37,764 nucleotides of DNA from Blastocatellia bacterium (lineage in GTDB: Bacteria > Acidobacteriota > Blastocatellia > UBA7656 > JADIYM01): positions 1-37,764 of the forward strand of contig JAJTWZ010000041.1 in the NCBI GenBank assembly GCA_021463145.1, read 5' to 3'. Shown here one piece after another: positions 19,949 to 37,294 of the stretch (the first letter of the stretch is position 1; each line of letters begins with the position of its first letter). Both the position numbers and the translations under genes were made by a program. The notes under the pieces were generated by a model that had not been told where the DNA came from, did not search any database, and saw only the letters and a program-made list of their open reading frames with translations.

Positions 19949-21196
19949 ATGCCGGAAGTAGACAAAAAGGAACCACTGTTGACGGTCGAGCAGGCGCGCG
20001 AGCGCGTTCTCGAGGCGATACGCCCGATCGCTGGCGAGCGCGTTTCGCTCGCCGATGCACATTGCAGAGTACTTGCAGAATCGATCGTTGCCGGCCACGA
20101 CATACCGGCGCACGACAACACGGCAATGGACGGGTACGCCGTGCAAGCGGCCGACGTCGCTACGGCGACTCGCGAGACTCCGGTGACGCTGGCCGTGATC
20201 GAAACCCTGCCGGCCGGATACGTTGCGTCGCGCACGGTCGAGCCAGGGACGGCGATCCGAATAATGACCGGGGCGCCGATGCCGGATGGCGCTGACGCCG
20301 TCGTCATCGTCGAGGTGACCGAGTCGGAGGGTGACGAGGTCCGGGTCTTCAGGTCCGTGGCGCCCGGCGCAAGCATCCGGCGACGCGGCGAGGACGTGAC
20401 GGCGGGTACGGTTGTGTTCGCTCACGGGACGGACCTTCGCGCCGGAGAGATCGGATTCCTGGCGTCCCTGGGACGTCCGTATGTGACAGTTTCGCGACGG
20501 CCCCGGGTGGCGATACTTTCCACCGGCGACGAACTGATCGAGGCTGGCCAGCCGGCGGAGGCCGGCAAGCTCGTTAACTCGAATGCTTTCTCGCTTGCGG
20601 CTCTGGCGAAAGAGGCCGGAGCGGAAGCCACGGTGCTTCCGATCGCGCGCGACACGCTCGAGGACATCTCGGCGGCGCTCGTCGCGGCGGCCGAAGCCGA
20701 TGTGGTGGTGACGAGCGGCGGCGTATCGGTGGGCGACTTCGACTTCGTCAAGGCGGCGCTCGATGGACTCGGCGCCCGGACGAACTTCTGGCGTATCGCG
20801 ATGAAACCTGGAAAGCCGGTCGTGTTCGCCGAACTGCGGGGGAGGCCGTTCTTCGGACTCCCGGGAAATCCGGTGTCGTGCATGGTCGGATTTCACCTTT
20901 TCGTCTGGCCTGCGCTCAGAAAGATGCTGGGCGTCGAAGCCGGACGGCTGATGAGGCCGGAGGTGACGGCCGTGCTTTCCGGACCGGTCAAGTCATCCGG
21001 AGAGCGAAGGAATTATCAGCGCGCGGTGATCGCCTGGCGAGACGGGCGGCTGGTGGCCGAGACGAAGAGGGCACAGGGATCTGGAGTGCTCTCGTCGATG
21101 GTCGCCGCAAACGGTCTGGTCGTCGTGCCGGAGGGAACCAGGCATATCGCCGAAGGCGAGTCGGTGAGGGTGCAGCTCATCGGCGAGATCGTGTGA
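19949..21196 (+). CDS. moeA: Molybdopterin molybdenumtransferase MoeA
   Basis: This 415-residue protein starts at ATG 19949 after GGAAGGGG. An in-frame TTG at 19919 is less likely. The N-terminal DNTAMDGYAV motif (56-65), the MoCF-type STGDEL near 191, TSGGVSVGDFDFVK and the substrate-loop GLPGNPVSCMVGF near 305 are all intact. The C-terminal MoeA domain IV is present (GERRNYQRAVI... AQGSGVLSSMVAANGLVVVPEG). MoeA inserts molybdate into adenylylated molybdopterin, the last shared step of Mo-cofactor synthesis in the cytoplasm. It sits close behind oppC, possibly by read-through. Functionally it fits the Mo/W formate dehydrogenase encoded at 25539-30265. Confidence 0.96.
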   Translation: MPEVDKKEPLLTVEQARERVLEAIRPIAGERVSLADAHCRVLAESIVAGHDIPAHDNTAMDGYAVQAADVATATRETPVTLAVIETLPAGYVASRTVEPGTAIRIMTGAPMPDGADAVVIVEVTESEGDEVRVFRSVAPGASIRRRGEDVTAGTVVFAHGTDLRAGEIGFLASLGRPYVTVSRRPRVAILSTGDELIEAGQPAEAGKLVNSNAFSLAALAKEAGAEATVLPIARDTLEDISAALVAAAEADVVVTSGGVSVGDFDFVKAALDGLGARTNFWRIAMKPGKPVVFAELRGRPFFGLPGNPVSCMVGFHLFVWPALRKMLGVEAGRLMRPEVTAVLSGPVKSSGERRNYQRAVIAWRDGRLVAETKRAQGSGVLSSMVAANGLVVVPEGTRHIAEGESVRVQLIGEIV

Positions 21197-25538: not shown

Positions 25539-26531
25539 TCAATCGCGGTCCTTGTCCTGGTTCACCCACTCCCACCCGAATCGGCCTTTGATGCAAAGAT
25601 GTCCGTTGGCTACGTCCTGGTCCAGCGGGGAAGTTACCTTGACGATCAGGTCGTGTTGCGCATGCACCGTGAGCGTGCACCCGACACCGCAGTACGGACA
25701 GATGGTGTCAGTCTGCGACTGTGCGGACTCGTCCCACGTGCCGGCCGCGCGCATGTCGTGTTCGCTCTTGAACATGAGCGCCCCGGTCGGGCAAACGCCG
25801 ATGCAGTTCCCGCAGTAGACGCACGCCGAATCAGGAAGCGTCACGTCGTACTCGGTGGCAATTCGCGCCCCGAATCCACGGCCCGCAACGGCGATGGCGA
25901 ACGTGTTCTGAGCATCCACGCCACAGGCCTCGACGCATTTGTAGCAGAGGATGCACTTTGAGTAATCGCGCACGTACAGCTCGTTGTCGATTTTCACCGG
26001 CTGCGCGACGCGGGAGGCCGTCGAACCGTCCGGCGCGTGATGGTGCCCCGGTCTCGCCGAGTCCCGTTCGCCAGCTGCCGCCGGCGGTCCTGGAGGACCG
26101 AAGCGACTCGGTTCCGCTTCGTATCGCGACATGTAGTCCTGAAACTGCGGCGCCGTCGATACGTCGACGGAAGAAGCCAGCAACTCGAGCACGAGTCTCC
26201 GGCTGTGCCGGACACGCTCGCTGTCCGTGTGAATCACCATCCCCGCCTCGACCTTGCGCGAACACGCCGGGACGAGCGTGCGCGAACCCTCCAGCTCGAC
26301 GACGCAGATGCGGCAGACGTTGACGGGAGTGAGGTTCTCGAGGAAACACAGCGTCGGCGTATCGATTCCCTGCATCCGGCCGGCCTCGAGCAGCGTCGCG
26401 CCTTCCGGTACCGCGACGGTCGCTCCGTCGATCGTGATCTCGACGGACTTGCGCGAGCCGGTGGGCAGCACCGGAACGGGACCCTGCGGTACCGGAACGA
26501 GCGGATCGGGCGCCTTCAGGTTGTCACTCAT
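25539..26531 (-). CDS. Formate dehydrogenase iron-sulfur protein carrying the N-terminal [4Fe-4S] domain of the catalytic subunit
   Basis: This is a 330-residue protein. A [2Fe-2S] ferredoxin domain comes first (C62, C73, C76, C90). The NuoG-like HxxxCxxCxxxxxC cluster expected next (about 110-145) is missing: the region reads LLASSVDVSTAPQF with no Cys or His ligands. Two 4Fe-4S motifs follow (C193, C196, C199, C203 and C237, C240, C243, C247). The C-terminal 55 residues are the [4Fe-4S] module that normally begins a Mo/W-bisMGD catalytic chain (C278-PY-C281-GVG-C285 ... C313-IKGRFGWEWVN). It stops exactly where the catalytic chain at 28346-30265 picks up (RLTTPLVRENG). It is last in the operon, and its ATG overlaps the NuoEF stop (ATGA). 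It relays electrons between the active site and the flavin subunit. Confidence 0.93.
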   Translation of the reverse strand: MSDNLKAPDPLVPVPQGPVPVLPTGSRKSVEITIDGATVAVPEGATLLEAGRMQGIDTPTLCFLENLTPVNVCRICVVELEGSRTLVPACSRKVEAGMVIHTDSERVRHSRRLVLELLASSVDVSTAPQFQDYMSRYEAEPSRFGPPGPPAAAGERDSARPGHHHAPDGSTASRVAQPVKIDNELYVRDYSKCILCYKCVEACGVDAQNTFAIAVAGRGFGARIATEYDVTLPDSACVYCGNCIGVCPTGALMFKSEHDMRAAGTWDESAQSQTDTICPYCGVGCTLTVHAQHDLIVKVTSPLDQDVANGHLCIKGRFGWEWVNQDKDRD

Positions 26532-28318
26532 TTCGGCTCCTCCGGCAGCGGAAGTCGGGCAAGGGCCGATTCAATGGCGCTCGAAGCGGTGTGACCAAGT
26601 CCGCAGATCGATGCATCTCGCATCACGCGCCCGATCTCGGCAAGCAGCGCGACCTCGTCCTCGCGCGATCCGTGAACGTCATTCGAAGCAAGGCGTTGCA
26701 GAAGCTCCTCCTGCCGAACCGTCCCGACGCGGCACGGAACACACTGACCACACGACTCGTCACGGAAGAACTCCGCAATGCGACGGAGCACGGCGGGCAA
26801 ATATGCGCCGTCGTCGAACGGCATGATCACCGCCGATCCGAGCGTTGCGCCGATCGCCCGCGTTCCCTCGAACGTGAGCGGGACGTCCAGATCGTCCGGT
26901 CCGACGAACGCTCCAGCGGCGCCCCCCAGAAGAACGGCCTGGAGCTTTCCGCTTCCAGCGAGTCCACCTGCAAGCTCGATCATCTCGCGCAACGTGATCC
27001 CGAAATCCGCCTCGTAGACGCCAGGCCGCGCGACCTGTCCCGACACACAGAACAGCTTTGGTCCGGTCGAACGTTCGGTCCCGATCGATGCAAATGCCTC
27101 CGCGCCCATCGTAAGGACGAGTGGCACGTTGACAAGCGTCTCGACGTTGTTGATGACGGTGGGCCGGCCGAAGAGACCCACCTGCGTCGGAAACGGCGGC
27201 TTGTTTCGAGGCTCGCCGCGAAATCCTTCGATCGAGTTCATCAACGCGGTCTCTTCGCCGCAGATGTAGGCGCCCGCGCCGCGCCGCAACTCGACGTCGA
27301 ACGAAAAGCCGCTGCCGGCAATGTCGTCGCCCAGTAAACCCCGCTCGCGGCACCGCGCCATCGCATTCTCGAGTCGCGTGGCAGCAAGCGGGTACTCTCC
27401 GCGAATGTAGACGTACCCGCGTTCGCATCCCGTCGCAAAGCCAGCGATTACCATCGACTCGACGAGCGCGAACGGGTCGCCTTCCATCAGCACACGGTCC
27501 TTGAAAGTGCCGGGCTCCGATTCGTCGGCGTTGCAGATGAGATACCTGGGCGCCGGTTCGCGTCGAACGGCCGCCCACTTCACGCCGGTCGGAAATGCGG
27601 CGCCGCCGCGACCCACCAGTCTGGCGGACGTGACCTCGGAGAAGATTGCCTCGGCGCCCATCTCCAGAGCGCGACGAAGCGCCGTGAATCCTCCCGCGGA
27701 CTCGTACGCACCGATACTAGTCGGATCGATGGAGCCGGCGCGCGCCAGCAATCGCAGTCCGGCTGCACCGGCCTGGGGCAGCGACGCCGCCACTCCCGGC
27801 TCGGGCGGAGCGTCTCCGGCAAGTGCTCCCAACACCACAGCGGCCGTTGCGGGGCCTATCGCCTGCTCGCTCGGATTTTCACCCGCGACCACGACGAGTG
27901 CCGCGGGCGCTCTCTCGCACATCCCGAGGCACGGACTGCGCTGCCAGGCCGACGGGCCGCCGCCAGTGCTTCCAGCCGGTCCAAGCGTGGCTTCCATCGC
28001 GTTGCATAGCGACTCGGCGCCCTTCGGCATACAGCCAATGTCGTCGCAAACGTGCGCGATCGCCCTCGGCTGCTCGCGCGTCGAGAGAAGCGCATAGAAG
28101 TCGGCAACTCCGAATGCCTCGGCCGGCGGCACGCCCAGTCCGCGGCACAGATGATTGAGCGCGCCCTCGCTGATCCATCCGGCGCTGGTCTGGACGACGT
28201 GCAGCGCCGGCAGCAGGTACTGACGGCGCGGTCCGCCGGCCGGCAGCCTGGACAGGAACCCGTCAATTGCCGCGCGTTCTTGCGGAGTCGGCTCAGCGGA
28301 CGTGAAGTGCAGATCCAT
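26528..28318 (-). CDS. NuoE-NuoF fusion: NAD(H)-reacting diaphorase subunit of formate dehydrogenase
   Basis: This 596-residue protein is two subunits in one chain. Residues about 1-165 are the NuoE-like thioredoxin-fold [2Fe-2S] domain, with ligands C91, C96, C130 and C134 (CDDIGC, CLGMC). Residues about 185-596 are NuoF-like: the glycine-rich FMN/NAD site (GRGGAAFPTGVKW), ICNADESEPGTFKDR, GAGAYICGEETALMNSIEG, and the [4Fe-4S] ligands in ESCGQCVPCR plus a fourth Cys in SICGLG. It passes electrons between NAD(H) and the Fe-S chain, as in soluble NAD-dependent or bifurcating FDHs and Hox/Hyd diaphorases. The ribosome site is weak (GGGA far upstream). It starts 27 bases after the catalytic gene, in the same frame, suggesting coupling. 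Confidence 0.95.
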   Translation of the reverse strand: MDLHFTSAEPTPQERAAIDGFLSRLPAGGPRRQYLLPALHVVQTSAGWISEGALNHLCRGLGVPPAEAFGVADFYALLSTREQPRAIAHVCDDIGCMPKGAESLCNAMEATLGPAGSTGGGPSAWQRSPCLGMCERAPAALVVVAGENPSEQAIGPATAAVVLGALAGDAPPEPGVAASLPQAGAAGLRLLARAGSIDPTSIGAYESAGGFTALRRALEMGAEAIFSEVTSARLVGRGGAAFPTGVKWAAVRREPAPRYLICNADESEPGTFKDRVLMEGDPFALVESMVIAGFATGCERGYVYIRGEYPLAATRLENAMARCRERGLLGDDIAGSGFSFDVELRRGAGAYICGEETALMNSIEGFRGEPRNKPPFPTQVGLFGRPTVINNVETLVNVPLVLTMGAEAFASIGTERSTGPKLFCVSGQVARPGVYEADFGITLREMIELAGGLAGSGKLQAVLLGGAAGAFVGPDDLDVPLTFEGTRAIGATLGSAVIMPFDDGAYLPAVLRRIAEFFRDESCGQCVPCRVGTVRQEELLQRLASNDVHGSREDEVALLAEIGRVMRDASICGLGHTASSAIESALARLPLPEEPK

Positions 28319-28345: not shown

Positions 28346-30265
28346 TCAGACAGGCGAGAGCGCCTCGGCCGCGACGGCAATCTTCTCGATGCGCACGGCC
28401 GTGGCCTTGAATTCCGACGTCCCGGACATCGGGTCGACTGCGTCAATCGTGAGCTCGTTGACCGCGACGTCATCCGGGAAATGCATCGTCATGAAAACGA
28501 GCCCGGCCCTCAGGCCGTCGTCGATGCGAACCGGTGCTACGACAGACCCGCGGCGGGATGTGACCCTGACTGGCTCGCCCTCGACTAGTCCGTATGCCCG
28601 GGCGTCATCCGGAGAGATGTCGAGAGTCTCGCCGCGCCTTAGTGGCGACGGATAGACACCAGACTGAACTCCAGTGTTGTAGGAATCGAGCCGGCGGCCG
28701 GTCGTAAGCCGAATGGGGAACTCCTCCGTCAGCTTGTCCACCGGCATCCTGTTCGTGCAGACCGAAAATGGAGCGAGCGGACCGAGCACCGGCCTCATCC
28801 AGAGCCTCCCGTGCAGATACTGCTCGCCCGGATGTTCCTCGTCGTAACAGGGCCACTGCAGACCTTGACCCGTCTCGAGGCGTGCGTAACTCATGCCGCG
28901 ATGCATGGGGCTGAGTGCCCGGACCTCGTTCCAGATCGCTTCCGCGACAGGTTCGCCGATGTCGCATCCCATTCGTTTCGCCAGGTCGCTGAGGATAACG
29001 AGGTCGTCGCGGACGCCATCCGGCGGCGCCACAGCCCGGCGCACGCGCTGCACGCGCCGCTCGCTGTTCGTGACCGTGCCTTCGGACTCGACCCAGCCGG
29101 CAGCGGCGGGGAAGACGACGTCGGCAAGCTCGGCGGTCTGCGTGAGGATCATGTCCTGCACGACCAGCGTCTCGAGCCCCTCCAGCAGCCGGCGTGTGCG
29201 GTGCTGGTCCGACTCGCTGTTCGCCGGGTTCTCCCCAATCACGTAAAGCGAGGTCAACTCGCCCCGCTCCATCGCGTCGAACATCCCGCTAAGGTGCCAG
29301 CCTCGCCTTGCCGGCATCGTGATGCCCCACGCTTCGTCGAATGGACGCCGGAGCTCGTCGTTCTCGAGATGCTGAAAGCCAACGAGCCGGTCAGGCAACG
29401 CGCCCATGTCGCCGCCACCCTGCACGTTGTTCTGCCCGCGAAGGGGATTGAGCCCCGAACCGTAGCGGCCAACGTGACCGGTGAGCAATCCGAGATTGAT
29501 GAGCGATAGAACGTTGTCGACGGAGTTGTGGTGCTCGGTGATTCCGAGAGTCCAGCAGAGCTGCGCGTTGCGCGCGGTCGCGAATTCGTGAGCGAGCCGG
29601 CGAATGGATTCGGGCGCTACCCGGCATACTTCCGCGGCGTGTTCGAGGGTGTACGGTTCGACGTGGGCGTGAAATTCCTCGAACCCGCTCGTTGCGTTCT
29701 CGATGAACTCGCGATCCTCGAGACCGGCCGCGAGGATTTCGCGAGCTACGGCGTTCGCCAGCACGATGTCGGTACCGACGTCGAGCCCGAGCCACGTGTC
29801 GGCCCAGTCGGCGCTGGTGGTGCGTCGCGGATCCACGACGAACAGTTTCGCGCCCCGGTTTACGGCTTTCAGCACGTGGTGGAAGTAAATGGGATGCGTC
29901 TCACGGGCATTACTTCCCCACAGGACGACGGTATCCGCCTCCTCCATCTCGCGGTACGAACTCGTACCGCCACCCATTCCGAACACTGTCGCCAGACCGA
30001 CGACGCTTGGAGCGTGTCAGGTACGGTTGCAGCTGTCGATGTTGTTGCTTCCGATCACCACCCGGGCGAACTTCTGTGCGTAGAAGTTCATCTCGTTCGT
30101 CGTCTTCGAGCAGCTGAAGAGTCCGAAGCTCTGTGGTCCGTGCGCGGCTTTCGCCGCTGCGAAGCCCGCTGCGGCGCGGTCAAGCGCTTCGTCCCAGGTA
30201 GCCGGCCGCAGGGCTCCGTTCTCGCGAACGAGAGGCGTGGTAAGTCGTCCTAGTCGCTTTCGCAT
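28346..30265 (-). CDS. fdhA: Selenocysteine-containing formate dehydrogenase catalytic subunit (lacking its N-terminal [4Fe-4S] domain)
   Basis: This chain is 639 residues if TGA 30017-30019 is read as selenocysteine. It starts at ATG 30265 (AAGG at 6 bases). The sequence enters the family at GRLTTPLVRENG...WDEALD. It reaches SCNRT-Sec83-HAPSVVGLATVFG, which aligns with the U-H-x-P-S-V-x-G-L active site of formate dehydrogenases, where Sec or Cys ligates Mo/W. Frame and homology continue unbroken after it: VLWGSNARETHP, RTTSADWADTWL, GLLTGHVGRYGSGLNPLRGQNNVQG, and the C-terminal molydop_binding domain (RLTTGRRLDSYNTGVQSG ... VRVTSRRG). It oxidises formate to CO2, or the reverse, in the cytoplasm (no Tat signal). 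The usual N-terminal CxxCxxxC domain is absent and encoded instead at 25539-26531. Conventional gene callers would report two broken ORFs here. Confidence 0.93.
29982..30019 (-). promoter_or_regulatory. Bacterial SECIS element with the Sec UGA codon
   Basis: Read on the minus strand, the UGA (30019-30017) is followed by a hairpin. The lower stem pairs GACAC (30018-30014) with GUGUU (29986-29982). The upper stem pairs GUCGUC (30004-29999) with GGCGAC (29993-29988), including one G-U pair, around the 5-base loop GGUCU. The loop starts 21 bases from the U of UGA, the same spacing and loop bases I know from E. coli fdhF. SelB would bind here. The pairing was worked out by hand. Confidence 0.8.
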
Positions 30266-30483
30266 GTCCAGCCTTTCTGATTGGAATAACCGGCGGCGTC
30301 GAGTCTAGAAGCGCGGGGGCCGAATCTCAAGCTTTGTGACCCCTTGAACGGGCCTTGCCGCACCTGGGGTCGCATCGAGTAACGGTTGTGACGCTCCGGC
30401 TGACATTCGATTCCGTCCTCCGGTGGTACACTCCGAGACCTTTGCTGGCATTGCAGCCGATTACGCTTCAGGAGCAATTCCAA
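30266..30483. promoter_or_regulatory. Divergent promoter region between fdhA and fhs
   Basis: This 218-bp region separates the two divergent C1 genes. An extended -10-like TGGTACACT (30424-30432) lies about 50 bases before the fhs start; no convincing -35 is at the right distance. An inverted pair GACCCC/GGGGTC lies near 30337-30372. Shared control of formate dehydrogenase and formate-THF ligase is plausible, but no known operator is recognised. Confidence 0.4.
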
Positions 30484-32127
30484 ATGACCGACTCGTTGCT
30501 ACCTATCCGCGAAATTGCCGAACGGCTGGGCCTTTCCGATGACGACTTCGATCCGTACGGAAAGCACACCGCGAAGCTGAACCTCGGCCTTCTCGACAAG
30601 ATGGCGGACCGGCCCAAGGGCAAGCTGATCATGGTCACGGCGATCACGCCGACCAGTTACGGAGAAGGGAAGACCGTTTGCGCGGTCGGCCTCGCACAGG
30701 CTATCTGCAGGCACGGACGCCGCGGAATAATCACGTCGCGCGAGCCCTCGCTCGGTCCGATTTTCGGCGTCAAGGGAGGAGCGACCGGGGGAGGTAAAGC
30801 GCGCGTCGTCCCGTCGCACCTGATCAACCTTCACTTCACCGGCGACTTCCACGCGATCACGTCGGCGCACAACCTGCTCGCCGCAGCGCTTGACGCGCAT
30901 ATTCACCACGGCAACGCGCTCGACCTGGACGTCAACAACATCTCGTGGCCGCGAACTCTGGACATGAACGACCGGTCGCTCCGAAAGCTCGTCTCCGGCA
31001 TCGGCGGCAAGGCAAACGGAGTGCCGCGAGAAACGGGCTTCGTCATCACGGCGGCGTCCGAGGTAATGGCAATTCTCGCGCTTGCTACCTCTCGCGCCGA
31101 TCTTCGAACTCGCCTCGAGAACATCGTCGTCGGTTACGACCGCTCGGGAGGCCCGGTTCGGGCGGGGCAACTCGGCGTGACCGGGGCGATGATGGTTGTG
31201 CTGGCCGAAGCGCTCAAGCCGAACCTCGTGCAGACGCTCGAGAACACGCCGGCCCTGGTCCACACGGGCCCGTTCGGAAACATCGCTCACGGGACGAGCA
31301 GCGTGATCTCGCAGAGGATCGGACTTGCACTCGCCGATTACGTGGTCAACGAGTCCGGCTTCGGAGCCGATCTTGGGGCCGAGAAGTTCTTCGACATAGT
31401 GATGCCGATGTCGGGTCACGTGCCGTCGGCCGCCGTGCTCGTCGCCACAGCACGCGCCCTGGCCGCGCACGGTTCGGGAGGCGCCGGCGAGACCGGACCG
31501 GCCGCCGTCGAGCGCGGGCTTCCGAACCTCGAGCGCCATTTGACGAACCTGCGCAAGTTCGACCTGCCCGTCGTGGTCGGCGTAAATCGATTCCCGAACG
31601 ACACCGACGAGGAGCTTGCCGTAATCGAGTCGTTCTGCGAGCGGCAGGGCGTCGAATGCTCGATGGTCGAGGTTTATCAGCGCGGCGGCGAGGGTGGAAT
31701 GGACCTGGCGGCGAAGGTGATGGCGGCGGCCGATGCGCCGCGCGAGAAGCAGGCTAAGCCGCTGTACGAGCTCGACCTGCCGCTCGAGGCCAAGATCGAG
31801 CGGATCGCGACCGGGATCTACGGCGCGGACGGAGTCGATTTCGAGCCTGCGGCTCGTCGCAAGCTGAAAAAGTACTCGTCTATCGGATTTGGCGGCGTCC
31901 CCGTCTGCATCGCCAAGCCTCAGTCGTCGTTCACGGACGATCCAAAGGCGCTGAATGCGCCGACGGGATGGAGGTTGACGATCAGCGACGTGAACCTTTC
32001 GGCAGGTGCTGGCTTCGTGGTGGCAATAGCGGGCTCGATGATGTTGATGCCGGGCCTGCCGGCAGTGCCGCACGCTACGAAGCTCGACCTGACCGACGAC
32101 GGCCGGATCCTGGGTATGGACTGGTAA
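30484..32127 (+). CDS. fhs: Formate-tetrahydrofolate ligase
   Basis: This is a 547-residue protein, the usual FTHFS length. ATG 30484 is chosen for AGGAG at 9 bases. The longer frame upstream is intergenic. The N-terminal DPYGKHTAKL is a family signature. The P-loop reads TPTSYGEGKT (55-64), where most family members have TPTPAGEGKT. Further signatures are REPSLGPIFGVKGGATGGG, LNLHF-type INLHFTGDFHAITSAHNLLAA, VNRFPNDTDEEL and a C-terminal MLMPGLPAVPHA. It forms 10-formyl-THF from formate, THF and ATP in the cytoplasm. It enters the Wood-Ljungdahl methyl branch, the reductive glycine route, purine synthesis, or runs in reverse to release formate. Divergent from the formate dehydrogenase operon, it supplies or consumes the same formate pool. 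Confidence 0.97.
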   Translation: MTDSLLPIREIAERLGLSDDDFDPYGKHTAKLNLGLLDKMADRPKGKLIMVTAITPTSYGEGKTVCAVGLAQAICRHGRRGIITSREPSLGPIFGVKGGATGGGKARVVPSHLINLHFTGDFHAITSAHNLLAAALDAHIHHGNALDLDVNNISWPRTLDMNDRSLRKLVSGIGGKANGVPRETGFVITAASEVMAILALATSRADLRTRLENIVVGYDRSGGPVRAGQLGVTGAMMVVLAEALKPNLVQTLENTPALVHTGPFGNIAHGTSSVISQRIGLALADYVVNESGFGADLGAEKFFDIVMPMSGHVPSAAVLVATARALAAHGSGGAGETGPAAVERGLPNLERHLTNLRKFDLPVVVGVNRFPNDTDEELAVIESFCERQGVECSMVEVYQRGGEGGMDLAAKVMAAADAPREKQAKPLYELDLPLEAKIERIATGIYGADGVDFEPAARRKLKKYSSIGFGGVPVCIAKPQSSFTDDPKALNAPTGWRLTISDVNLSAGAGFVVAIAGSMMLMPGLPAVPHATKLDLTDDGRILGMDW

Positions 32128-34948: not shown

Positions 34949-37294
34949 TCAGAAATGGCGTCCGAGGCCTGCGAGAACCGTCGCAACCTCCACGCTGGAC
35001 TGAGCGGCGTACCAGCATCCGAACAGGACGCTGAAAACACCGGCAGCTATTTGCAAGCCGTGGTGGCTGCGCGACATCACGCCATTTGCAAGCGCGAAGG
35101 GCAGACCGATGAGACCCGACATCGCCAGCATTCCGGCGATCGAGCCCAGACCGAAAACCGCAAGATAGAGCAATCCGATGACCACGGAATCGATCTGCGC
35201 CAGCACGAGCAGCGTCAACGCCGCCGAGCCCGCCAGTCCGTGTACCGCACCGACGATCAATGGCTTGATTCCGAGCCTGGCCACGACGTGACCGTCCGAG
35301 CCGTGATCGTGCGCGTCGCCGGCCTCGTGGAAGTGCACGTGGGCGTGCTCTCCTCCGTCGTGCGAATGGCGATGGACGTGAACGGTCGAGCGGCCGCGCA
35401 TTCCTCGCAGAACAGCCGCCAGGCCAAGGCCGATGATCATCAGGGCCACGCAGAACTCGAGCGATCCCGCTACGGTGTCCGAGATCGCGATCCGGAGCGT
35501 GAGCACAACCACGCCAACCGCGAGCAGCGACGCGGTGTGGCCAATGCCCCACAGCGCTCCAACCATCGCAGCGCGCCTGACCTGCCTGTGTTCGCTCACG
35601 ATCGTCGAAACGGCGACGACGTGATCGGCTTCCGTTGCGTGCTTGAGGCCGAACAGCAACCCGAGTCCCAGAATGCCTGCTGCTCCCAGTCCGGCGAGCG
35701 ACAGATCCTCGCCGTGGGCGAACAGAGCGGCCACGGCGGGCCAGGAGGCAAATCCGGCGTCCACCAGGGCTTTCCAGCTGATTGCCGCGCCAAGGGCGGC
35801 AATGACGGCTGCACTCACGATCGGCAGATACTTCGTTGCTCGCGTCAGCGTCGACGAACGGCCAAGCAGCCGGCCGGCGTAAACGAAAGCCAATCCAACC
35901 GCGGTCAACGCGCCCGCCAGACCGGCGCTGAAGGCGACGACGAGAACCAATCCGTAGCCGACCCGCTGAAGCGCCATTGCCGAAAGCAGCACCACGAGGG
36001 CGGACGGGCAGGGAAGCAGGCCTCCAGAGATTCCGAGAGCGAGCAGGCTGCGCATCGTCACGGGCGACCCGTCGGCTCCTGGCGGCAGGTGCGAATGTGT
36101 AGAGCCGCCGTGCGTGTGGACGTGACCGTGGGAGTGATGGCCGTGATCGTGAGTGTGATCGTGACCATCGTCGTGGTGGTGATGGTCGTGAGAGTGCGGT
36201 GCGGCCCCGCCGAAGGCGGCTCGAATCCGCGCGACGAAAAGCGAAATCCCCATCGCGAGCACGATCGCTCCCGACAGCACTCCGAGGATGGGGTACAACT
36301 GTTCCGGGCTGACGAAATTCGCTGCGAACAGCGTGACGATGCCAAGCGCGAACACTCCCGCCGTATGCGTGATCGTTACGGTCAGGCCGAGAAACAGCGC
36401 GTGCCGCAGCGTTCCACGCGAGCCGACGAGGTACGCGCCGACGACGGTCTTGCCGTGTCCGGGCGACATCGCGTGCAGTGCTCCGAGGCCGGCCGCGACC
36501 AGCAGACCAGCCAGCATGATCCAGGGCGTCAGTTCAGGCACCGCGATCAATTCCGCAAGACGGTCGCGAGTATCAGCCACTGGAACGCCATCGCGCGACC
36601 TTAGCGCGGATGAACCGGCCGGGGCTGTGCCGAGCGTCACCGAGAACTCCGCGGATCGCTCGTCGAGCGGCGCTTCCAGGAGGTTTTCCGGGTAGTCGCG
36701 AAGTTCGTTCGAAAGGCTGTTGCCGAACGAAGCCGTGTCGAAGGCCGCGACGCCAGTCGCGGGACGAACGACGATCTCACGCCATCCGAGGCGGTCGGCG
36801 AAAACGCTGTTGACGAACCGTATGGTGTGCGAAGGTTGACGAAGCTGTATGGAATCGGCCGAGAGATCGGTTTCGACTCTGAGAGTCAACAGACCGCCAG
36901 CTCCCGGGTGCGATTCCGCTCGTACTCGTTCGACACGAAGCGGCGTCCGGTTGCCATCCACGTAGAGTTCGAGGCCGGAGGAAATCAGCGCAGCGGAGCG
37001 GTCGGCATATGCCTGCAGTTCGTCGGCTGAAAGCTCGCCGTCGCCATTCGAGTCGATCCCGGGTGTCTCCTGCAGTGTTGGGATTTCCGCAACGTCCAGG
37101 ACGTGACGAACTCCGAAGCCGTCTGGCCGCGCAGTGACTTCCGCGAAGTGGTTGATGGTGAAATTGCCGAGTGGGTGAGCCGAAGCAGGTATGGCCAGGA
37201 ATGGAACTGCGACTGATGCGAAGACGGCAGCGAGCACTATGCCGCGCGTCGTCCGTGTGCGTCGATTGTCTGGCTGCCTTTGCAGGAACACCAC
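34949..37294 (-). CDS. Double nickel/cobalt transporter: RcnA/NicO-like half fused to NiCoT-like half
   Basis: This 781-residue protein starts at GTG 37294 with GGGGAGG just upstream. A signal peptide ends near ASAHPLGN; HPLGNFTINHF is typical of the periplasmic domain preceding NicO transporters. That domain carries an EF-hand loop (D81-x-N83-x-D85-G...E92). The first membrane half (about 250-530) has HAMSPGHGKT, the RcnA/NicO motif, a His/Asp-rich loop at about 361-405 and GGLLPCPSALVVLLSA. The second half (about 535-781) carries HATEADH, matching the NiCoT signature HxxxxDH, a second His-rich loop at about 634-668 and further membrane helices. It is predicted to move Ni2+ or Co2+. Import or export cannot be told: RcnA exports and NiCoT imports. 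It is the first gene of the unit with the DUF4331 and TPR genes. Confidence 0.9.
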   Translation of the reverse strand: MVFLQRQPDNRRTRTTRGIVLAAVFASVAVPFLAIPASAHPLGNFTINHFAEVTARPDGFGVRHVLDVAEIPTLQETPGIDSNGDGELSADELQAYADRSAALISSGLELYVDGNRTPLRVERVRAESHPGAGGLLTLRVETDLSADSIQLRQPSHTIRFVNSVFADRLGWREIVVRPATGVAAFDTASFGNSLSNELRDYPENLLEAPLDERSAEFSVTLGTAPAGSSALRSRDGVPVADTRDRLAELIAVPELTPWIMLAGLLVAAGLGALHAMSPGHGKTVVGAYLVGSRGTLRHALFLGLTVTITHTAGVFALGIVTLFAANFVSPEQLYPILGVLSGAIVLAMGISLFVARIRAAFGGAAPHSHDHHHHDDGHDHTHDHGHHSHGHVHTHGGSTHSHLPPGADGSPVTMRSLLALGISGGLLPCPSALVVLLSAMALQRVGYGLVLVVAFSAGLAGALTAVGLAFVYAGRLLGRSSTLTRATKYLPIVSAAVIAALGAAISWKALVDAGFASWPAVAALFAHGEDLSLAGLGAAGILGLGLLFGLKHATEADHVVAVSTIVSEHRQVRRAAMVGALWGIGHTASLLAVGVVVLTLRIAISDTVAGSLEFCVALMIIGLGLAAVLRGMRGRSTVHVHRHSHDGGEHAHVHFHEAGDAHDHGSDGHVVARLGIKPLIVGAVHGLAGSAALTLLVLAQIDSVVIGLLYLAVFGLGSIAGMLAMSGLIGLPFALANGVMSRSHHGLQIAAGVFSVLFGCWYAAQSSVEVATVLAGLGRHF

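Follow-up and report, generated by a model that had tools for sequence, protein, structure and literature searches.

Among described formate dehydrogenases (FDHs), the published counterpart of the locus studied here is FDH3 (FdhA3-FdhB3-FdhC3) of Actinomycetospora chiangmaiensis DSM 45062, whose three subunits measure 640, 614 and 316 aa, the 640-aa one carrying selenocysteine (Sec). Proteomics detected this enzyme, and the strain's removal of formate depended on selenite (PMC7176365). In the window, that is, the whole 37,764-nt stretch of Blastocatellia DNA that was analysed, three minus-strand genes encode proteins of 639, 596 and 330 aa, likewise with a Sec-containing alpha subunit and a predicted cytoplasmic NAD+-dependent activity, a match to FDH3 that is one of size, Sec and annotation rather than of alignment (PMC7176365). 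The three-gene layout is therefore not new. Unlike the window host, A. chiangmaiensis is an actinobacterium and possesses FdhD, and no mention of a split Fe4S4 domain was found in the main text of the FDH3 paper (PMC7176365).

Two further systems served for comparison. FdsABG (6tg9/6tga) has the same domains and the same order of electron transfer, with residues 23-304 and 308-931 of its FdsA corresponding to two of the window proteins. However, its FdsA is one polypeptide, whereas the window encodes a split FdsA together with a fused NuoE and NuoF and lacks the His-Cys [4Fe-4S] site: in the small-subunit alignment of the split family, the interval from residue 90 to residue 193 holds no conserved Cys. 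For lack of this site, the window enzyme was classed as FdsABG-like, its FdsA being split, and not as canonical FdsABG. The FdhF of E. coli (FDH-H) carries Sec at the same site, but it differs from the window enzyme in having kept the N-terminal Fe4S4 domain within the same chain and in not being linked to NAD.

The catalytic core is encoded by a 640-codon frame running from 30265 to 28346 on the minus strand, whose sole internal stop is a TGA at 30019-30017 (codon 83), and a terminal TGA closes the frame. At the 63% GC of the window, about 18 stops are expected by chance per 639 codons, and the probability of finding one or none is approximately 3e-7. When the TGA was taken as a residue, the 639-aa product with Sec83 matched the Fdh-alpha family TIGR01591 without a break from position 52 to 672 (628.9 bits), along with the Pfam domains Molybdopterin (PF00384) and Molydop_binding (PF01568), the latter being the Mo-dinucleotide-binding domain. 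The original prediction that two minus-strand frames are one gene joined by the TGA was thus borne out by the single stop and by Fdh-alpha homology on both sides, and the residues flanking the TGA, DSCNRT-U-HAPSVVGLATVFG, are those of the FDH active-site context that it had given. Its claim of a continuous FdhA homology held in that no break occurs across the TGA; the frame is nevertheless not a whole FdhA, as the first ~53 family positions, which form the Molybdop_Fe4S4 domain, are missing. The curated TIGR01591 cut-off of 666.25 bits was accordingly not reached, a shortfall that is expected because 53 positions sit in another gene, and the single-gene product does not equal a whole Fdh-alpha. 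The core aligned with residues 308-931 of FdsA (6tg9), and its best solved relatives were FdhF of the hydrogen-dependent CO2 reductase (HDCR; 7qv7), the formate dehydrogenases 7bkb and 9t1s, and FDH-H (1aa6).

From 84,980 species genomes scanned, the best 80 loci were kept; adding the window and the second of two tandem copies in one locus (L127) gave 82 family sequences, the relatives showing 62-77% identity. The codon at position 83 was TGA in 75 and Cys (TGC or TGT) in seven, and a sense codon besides Cys, which the original prediction had proposed to look for, appeared in none of the 82. The more distant, unsplit relatives from the host's own class (37-44% identity) showed the same dichotomy, with four TGA, 25 Cys and nothing else. 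On the family tree only three changes of the Sec/Cys label are required; within the split family, the Cys forms comprise one Streptomyces/Actinacidiphila group and one Actinoallomurus copy that lies beside a TGA copy. The latter locus, in Actinoallomurus iriomotensis (L127:5969-9875), contains tandem FdhA cores with TGA in one and TGC in the other, a natural Sec/Cys pair. A paralog in the host genome (G000:C116:24650) that the search had flagged with one TGA was set aside, as a different kind of sequence: its aligned codon is TGT, the surrounding context is unrelated and its 738-aa frame is open, so that the flagged TGA is not the active-site codon. Two loci titled 'Bifidobacterium breve' (L115) and 'Acidobacteria' (L095) both fell among the Acidimicrobiia FDHs on the tree, reflecting either mislabelled bins or transfer.

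Downstream of the TGA, a candidate bacterial SECIS hairpin, GUCGUC-GGUCU-GGCGAC, was located at 29988..30004 on the minus strand (+16 to +32 nt from the U of the UGA) on the basis of loop conservation, pairing and folding energy. Compared parameter by parameter with the bacterial SECIS model, which specifies a loop of 3-9 nt, a stem of 4-16 bp, a G within the first two loop positions, a distance of 16-37 nt from the UGA and an MFE of ≤ −7.5 kcal/mol (PMC13188914), the hairpin agrees throughout, with a loop of 5 nt, a stem of 6 bp, GG first in the loop, a loop distance of 18 nt and −8.3 kcal/mol (nt 14-35). Nothing in the window reached the gathering score in an Rfam search. The motif GGUCUG was present in 74/75 Sec genes versus 0/7 Cys genes, the Cys set being mostly of one lineage, while outside this site GGT accounts for just 14.6% of Gly codons in those Sec genes. 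The SECIS of E. coli FdhF has the same GGUCUG at the same distance from the UGA as in the window gene. Stem pair 18-30 was C-G in 61 and G-C in 14 of the 75 Sec genes, with no mismatches, but C-C in all seven Cys genes; the G-C form occurs in L097, in L098, and in L095 with the Acidimicrobiia group, a distribution that suggests about three separate double changes by a by-eye reading of the tree rather than a computed count. Over 35 sequences, 99.0% of cells paired versus 93.7% in shuffles, and covariation was 0.274 versus 0.171. Sliding the 3′ arm by +3 still allowed 86.7% of cells to pair owing to the repetitive sequence, but covariation fell to 0.146 from 0.274, and this register was rejected. 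Left unconstrained, a 48-nt segment folded otherwise, with an advantage of 0.9 kcal/mol over the fold containing the SECIS hairpin, and a 54-nt segment gave a different structure with an energy no better than shuffles, the energy test being uninformative on so long a segment. The hairpin was instead judged by conservation against the Cys relatives, which indicates that the hairpin after the UGA is under selection.

The host genome (G000; 5.28 Mb, 100% complete) was searched with family profiles for the decoding machinery, and all four components that the original prediction had implied scored over their family cut-offs: selA (contig C13; 557.6 bits), selB (C18; 337.7), selD (C96; 340.3) and tRNA-Sec, the selC product (C10; 74.3), with ARAGORN also reporting a tRNA-SeC with anticodon TCA. 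Among the 42 TGA-bearing genomes tested, SelB was over cut-off in 38 and the remaining four had a tRNA-Sec over cut-off; three of the six Cys-only genomes, all Streptomyces, had neither selB nor tRNA-Sec. In the KatS3mg013 genome, which has a TGA-type FDH and tRNA-Sec, SelB appears split over two frames (G145:C2:2177-2945), probably through a sequencing frameshift. The host selD itself (G000:C96:22929-23858, L145) contains an in-frame TGA in VSCAG-U-ASKIAP. This TGA falls at the known Cys/Sec active site of SelD, and the host SelD is probably a selenoprotein too.

Given the TGA or Cys codons of the relatives, the hairpin and the host selA, selB, selD and tRNA-Sec, the predicted assignment of the TGA to selenocysteine was upheld, and from these sequence comparisons we conclude that the UGA at codon 83 is the selenocysteine codon of a formate dehydrogenase. 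Two other accounts of the TGA fare poorly. That it arose from a Cys or Trp codon by mutation or by sequencing error, leaving a pseudogene or an artefactual stop, has nothing in its favour besides the stop codon's presence, and is at odds with the recurrence of TGA at this position in 75 members of the family drawn from several phyla, with downstream synonymous sites constrained as a SECIS hairpin, and with the Sec machinery of the host; the recurrence across phyla already refutes it, and we give it practically no credence. A true stop followed by a restart at GTG 29986, making the two halves separate proteins, could draw on the existing GTG-initiated ORF 28346-29986. However, its 82-residue N-terminal piece would terminate at the active-site residue, the Cys-codon relatives encode one continuous protein, and no gene without the TGA retains the GGUCUG loop, so that this account is exceedingly improbable as well.

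The part missing from the Sec-containing core was found in the third gene. TIGR01591 positions 1-53 matched the product of 25539..26531 (49 bits) and positions 52-672 that of 28346..30265, so both genes together supply all domains. This 330-aa electron-transfer subunit contains a [2Fe-2S] and two [4Fe-4S] clusters, has all cluster cysteines conserved, and ends with the detached Molybdop_Fe4S4 domain (25560..25712; residues 274-324; PF04879), in which Cys278, 281, 285 and 313 are conserved. Relative to FdsA (6tg9_A), of which residues 23-304 align with the small protein and 308-931 with the core, the cut lies exactly between the Fe4S4 domain and the remainder. Between the two minus-strand genes lies a third (26528..28318), encoding the 596-aa fused NuoE-NuoF, equivalent to FdsG plus FdsB, as an FMN/NAD module (PF01257, PF01512, PF22461/PF10531, PF10589); this NuoE/NuoF-like module and the Fer2/Fer4 module are kept in most loci of sufficient length. 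In unsplit relatives (e.g. L021) the order is nuoEF followed by FdsA, whereas the window has the same parts circularly permuted, as core, nuoEF and small subunit. The small subunit ended within ~33 residues past its CxKGR motif in 65/65 family members readable to its end, with the cluster cysteines conserved, and by this alignment the split of FdsA is common to all 65 checkable members. A ~2-kb gap in some Acidimicrobiia loci was considered as a second FdhA and dismissed, as its best ORF resembles, by eye, a zinc-type alcohol dehydrogenase/quinone reductase.

We therefore read the three minus-strand genes, with very high confidence, as encoding a putative cytoplasmic, NAD-linked, Mo/W-dependent Sec formate dehydrogenase that is FdsABG-like in type, in which two polypeptides make up FdsA and the UGA is decoded via SelB and SECIS. 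The reading starts from the observed frame, codon pattern, SECIS selection, decoding genes and domain partition; catalysis, reaction direction, complex assembly and the electron acceptor are predicted from homology. SelB and Sec-tRNA(UCA) would bind the hairpin just past the UGA and insert Sec at position 83, which is the predicted ligand of the active-site metal (Mo or W). Formate would be oxidized at this metal site, and electrons would pass through the in-trans Fe4S4 cluster of the 25539-26531 protein and its other Fe-S clusters to the NuoE-NuoF fusion and on to NAD+. A Sec molybdopterin enzyme with another activity, such as an assimilatory nitrate reductase, could be argued from the narrowly missed Fdh-alpha equivalog cut-off (628.9 vs 666.25) and from weaker NasC-type matches. 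Yet that shortfall is expected with 53 positions in another gene, the next family scored 219 bits lower, formate dehydrogenases are the closest relatives of solved structure, and both the UHAPSV motif of the active site and the neighbouring formate--tetrahydrofolate (THF) ligase accord with an FDH; another activity is thus very unlikely.

FdhD is generally needed for FDH activity, as established for E. coli. The host genome gave no match to FdhD/FdsC (PF02634, TIGR00129), and by these profiles FdhD was likewise absent from the Terriglobia-type relatives G118-G125 and G130, the records of G125 and G130 being titled as chromosomes; 35 of the 49 genomes tested had it. This absence counts against the reading as a functional FDH. 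Several genomes of the host's class with unsplit Cys-type relatives also lack FdhD, so its absence is tied neither to the split nor to Sec. A comparison of the neighbours in loci with and without FdhD revealed no non-FDH gene common to most FdhD-lacking loci that might substitute for it. It is conceivable, if rather doubtful, that the Acidobacteriota-type clade matures the split Sec FDH without the FdhD/FdsC sulfurtransferase, and that an unrelated protein or none delivers the sulfido ligand to Mo/W-bisMGD.

Around the proposed Sec FDH, a divergent formate--THF ligase (30484..32127 on the plus strand, with a putative start within ORF 30355-32127; NF010030, 749.9 bits vs a cut-off of 652) begins ~220 nt upstream of the core. 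Another 16 loci, almost all of them from Actinobacteria, have this ligase close to the FDH, and most share the divergent orientation. With MoeA at ~19979-21196, these surroundings fit a role in C1/formate metabolism. Farther off, a long minus-strand ORF (34949-37294) contains a NicO nickel/cobalt transporter domain mid-protein (residues 266-506). The window FDH grouped on the tree with Terriglobia (Acidobacteriota) sequences, and no full-length relative above 44% identity occurred in the other genomes of the host's class that were searched; horizontal acquisition is possible.

The Sec finding itself is ordinary, since among bacterial selenoproteins formate dehydrogenase already ranks as the most widespread (PMC13188914); mildly unusual are the way FdsA is split throughout the family and the apparent lack of FdhD. 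Its importance lies in annotation: software that takes UGA for a stop will break this gene and its relatives into two pieces and thereby hide selenium-dependent formate oxidation in poorly cultured bacteria of soil and groundwater, among the Acidobacteriota, Chloroflexota, Planctomycetota, Vulcanimicrobiota and Actinomycetota.
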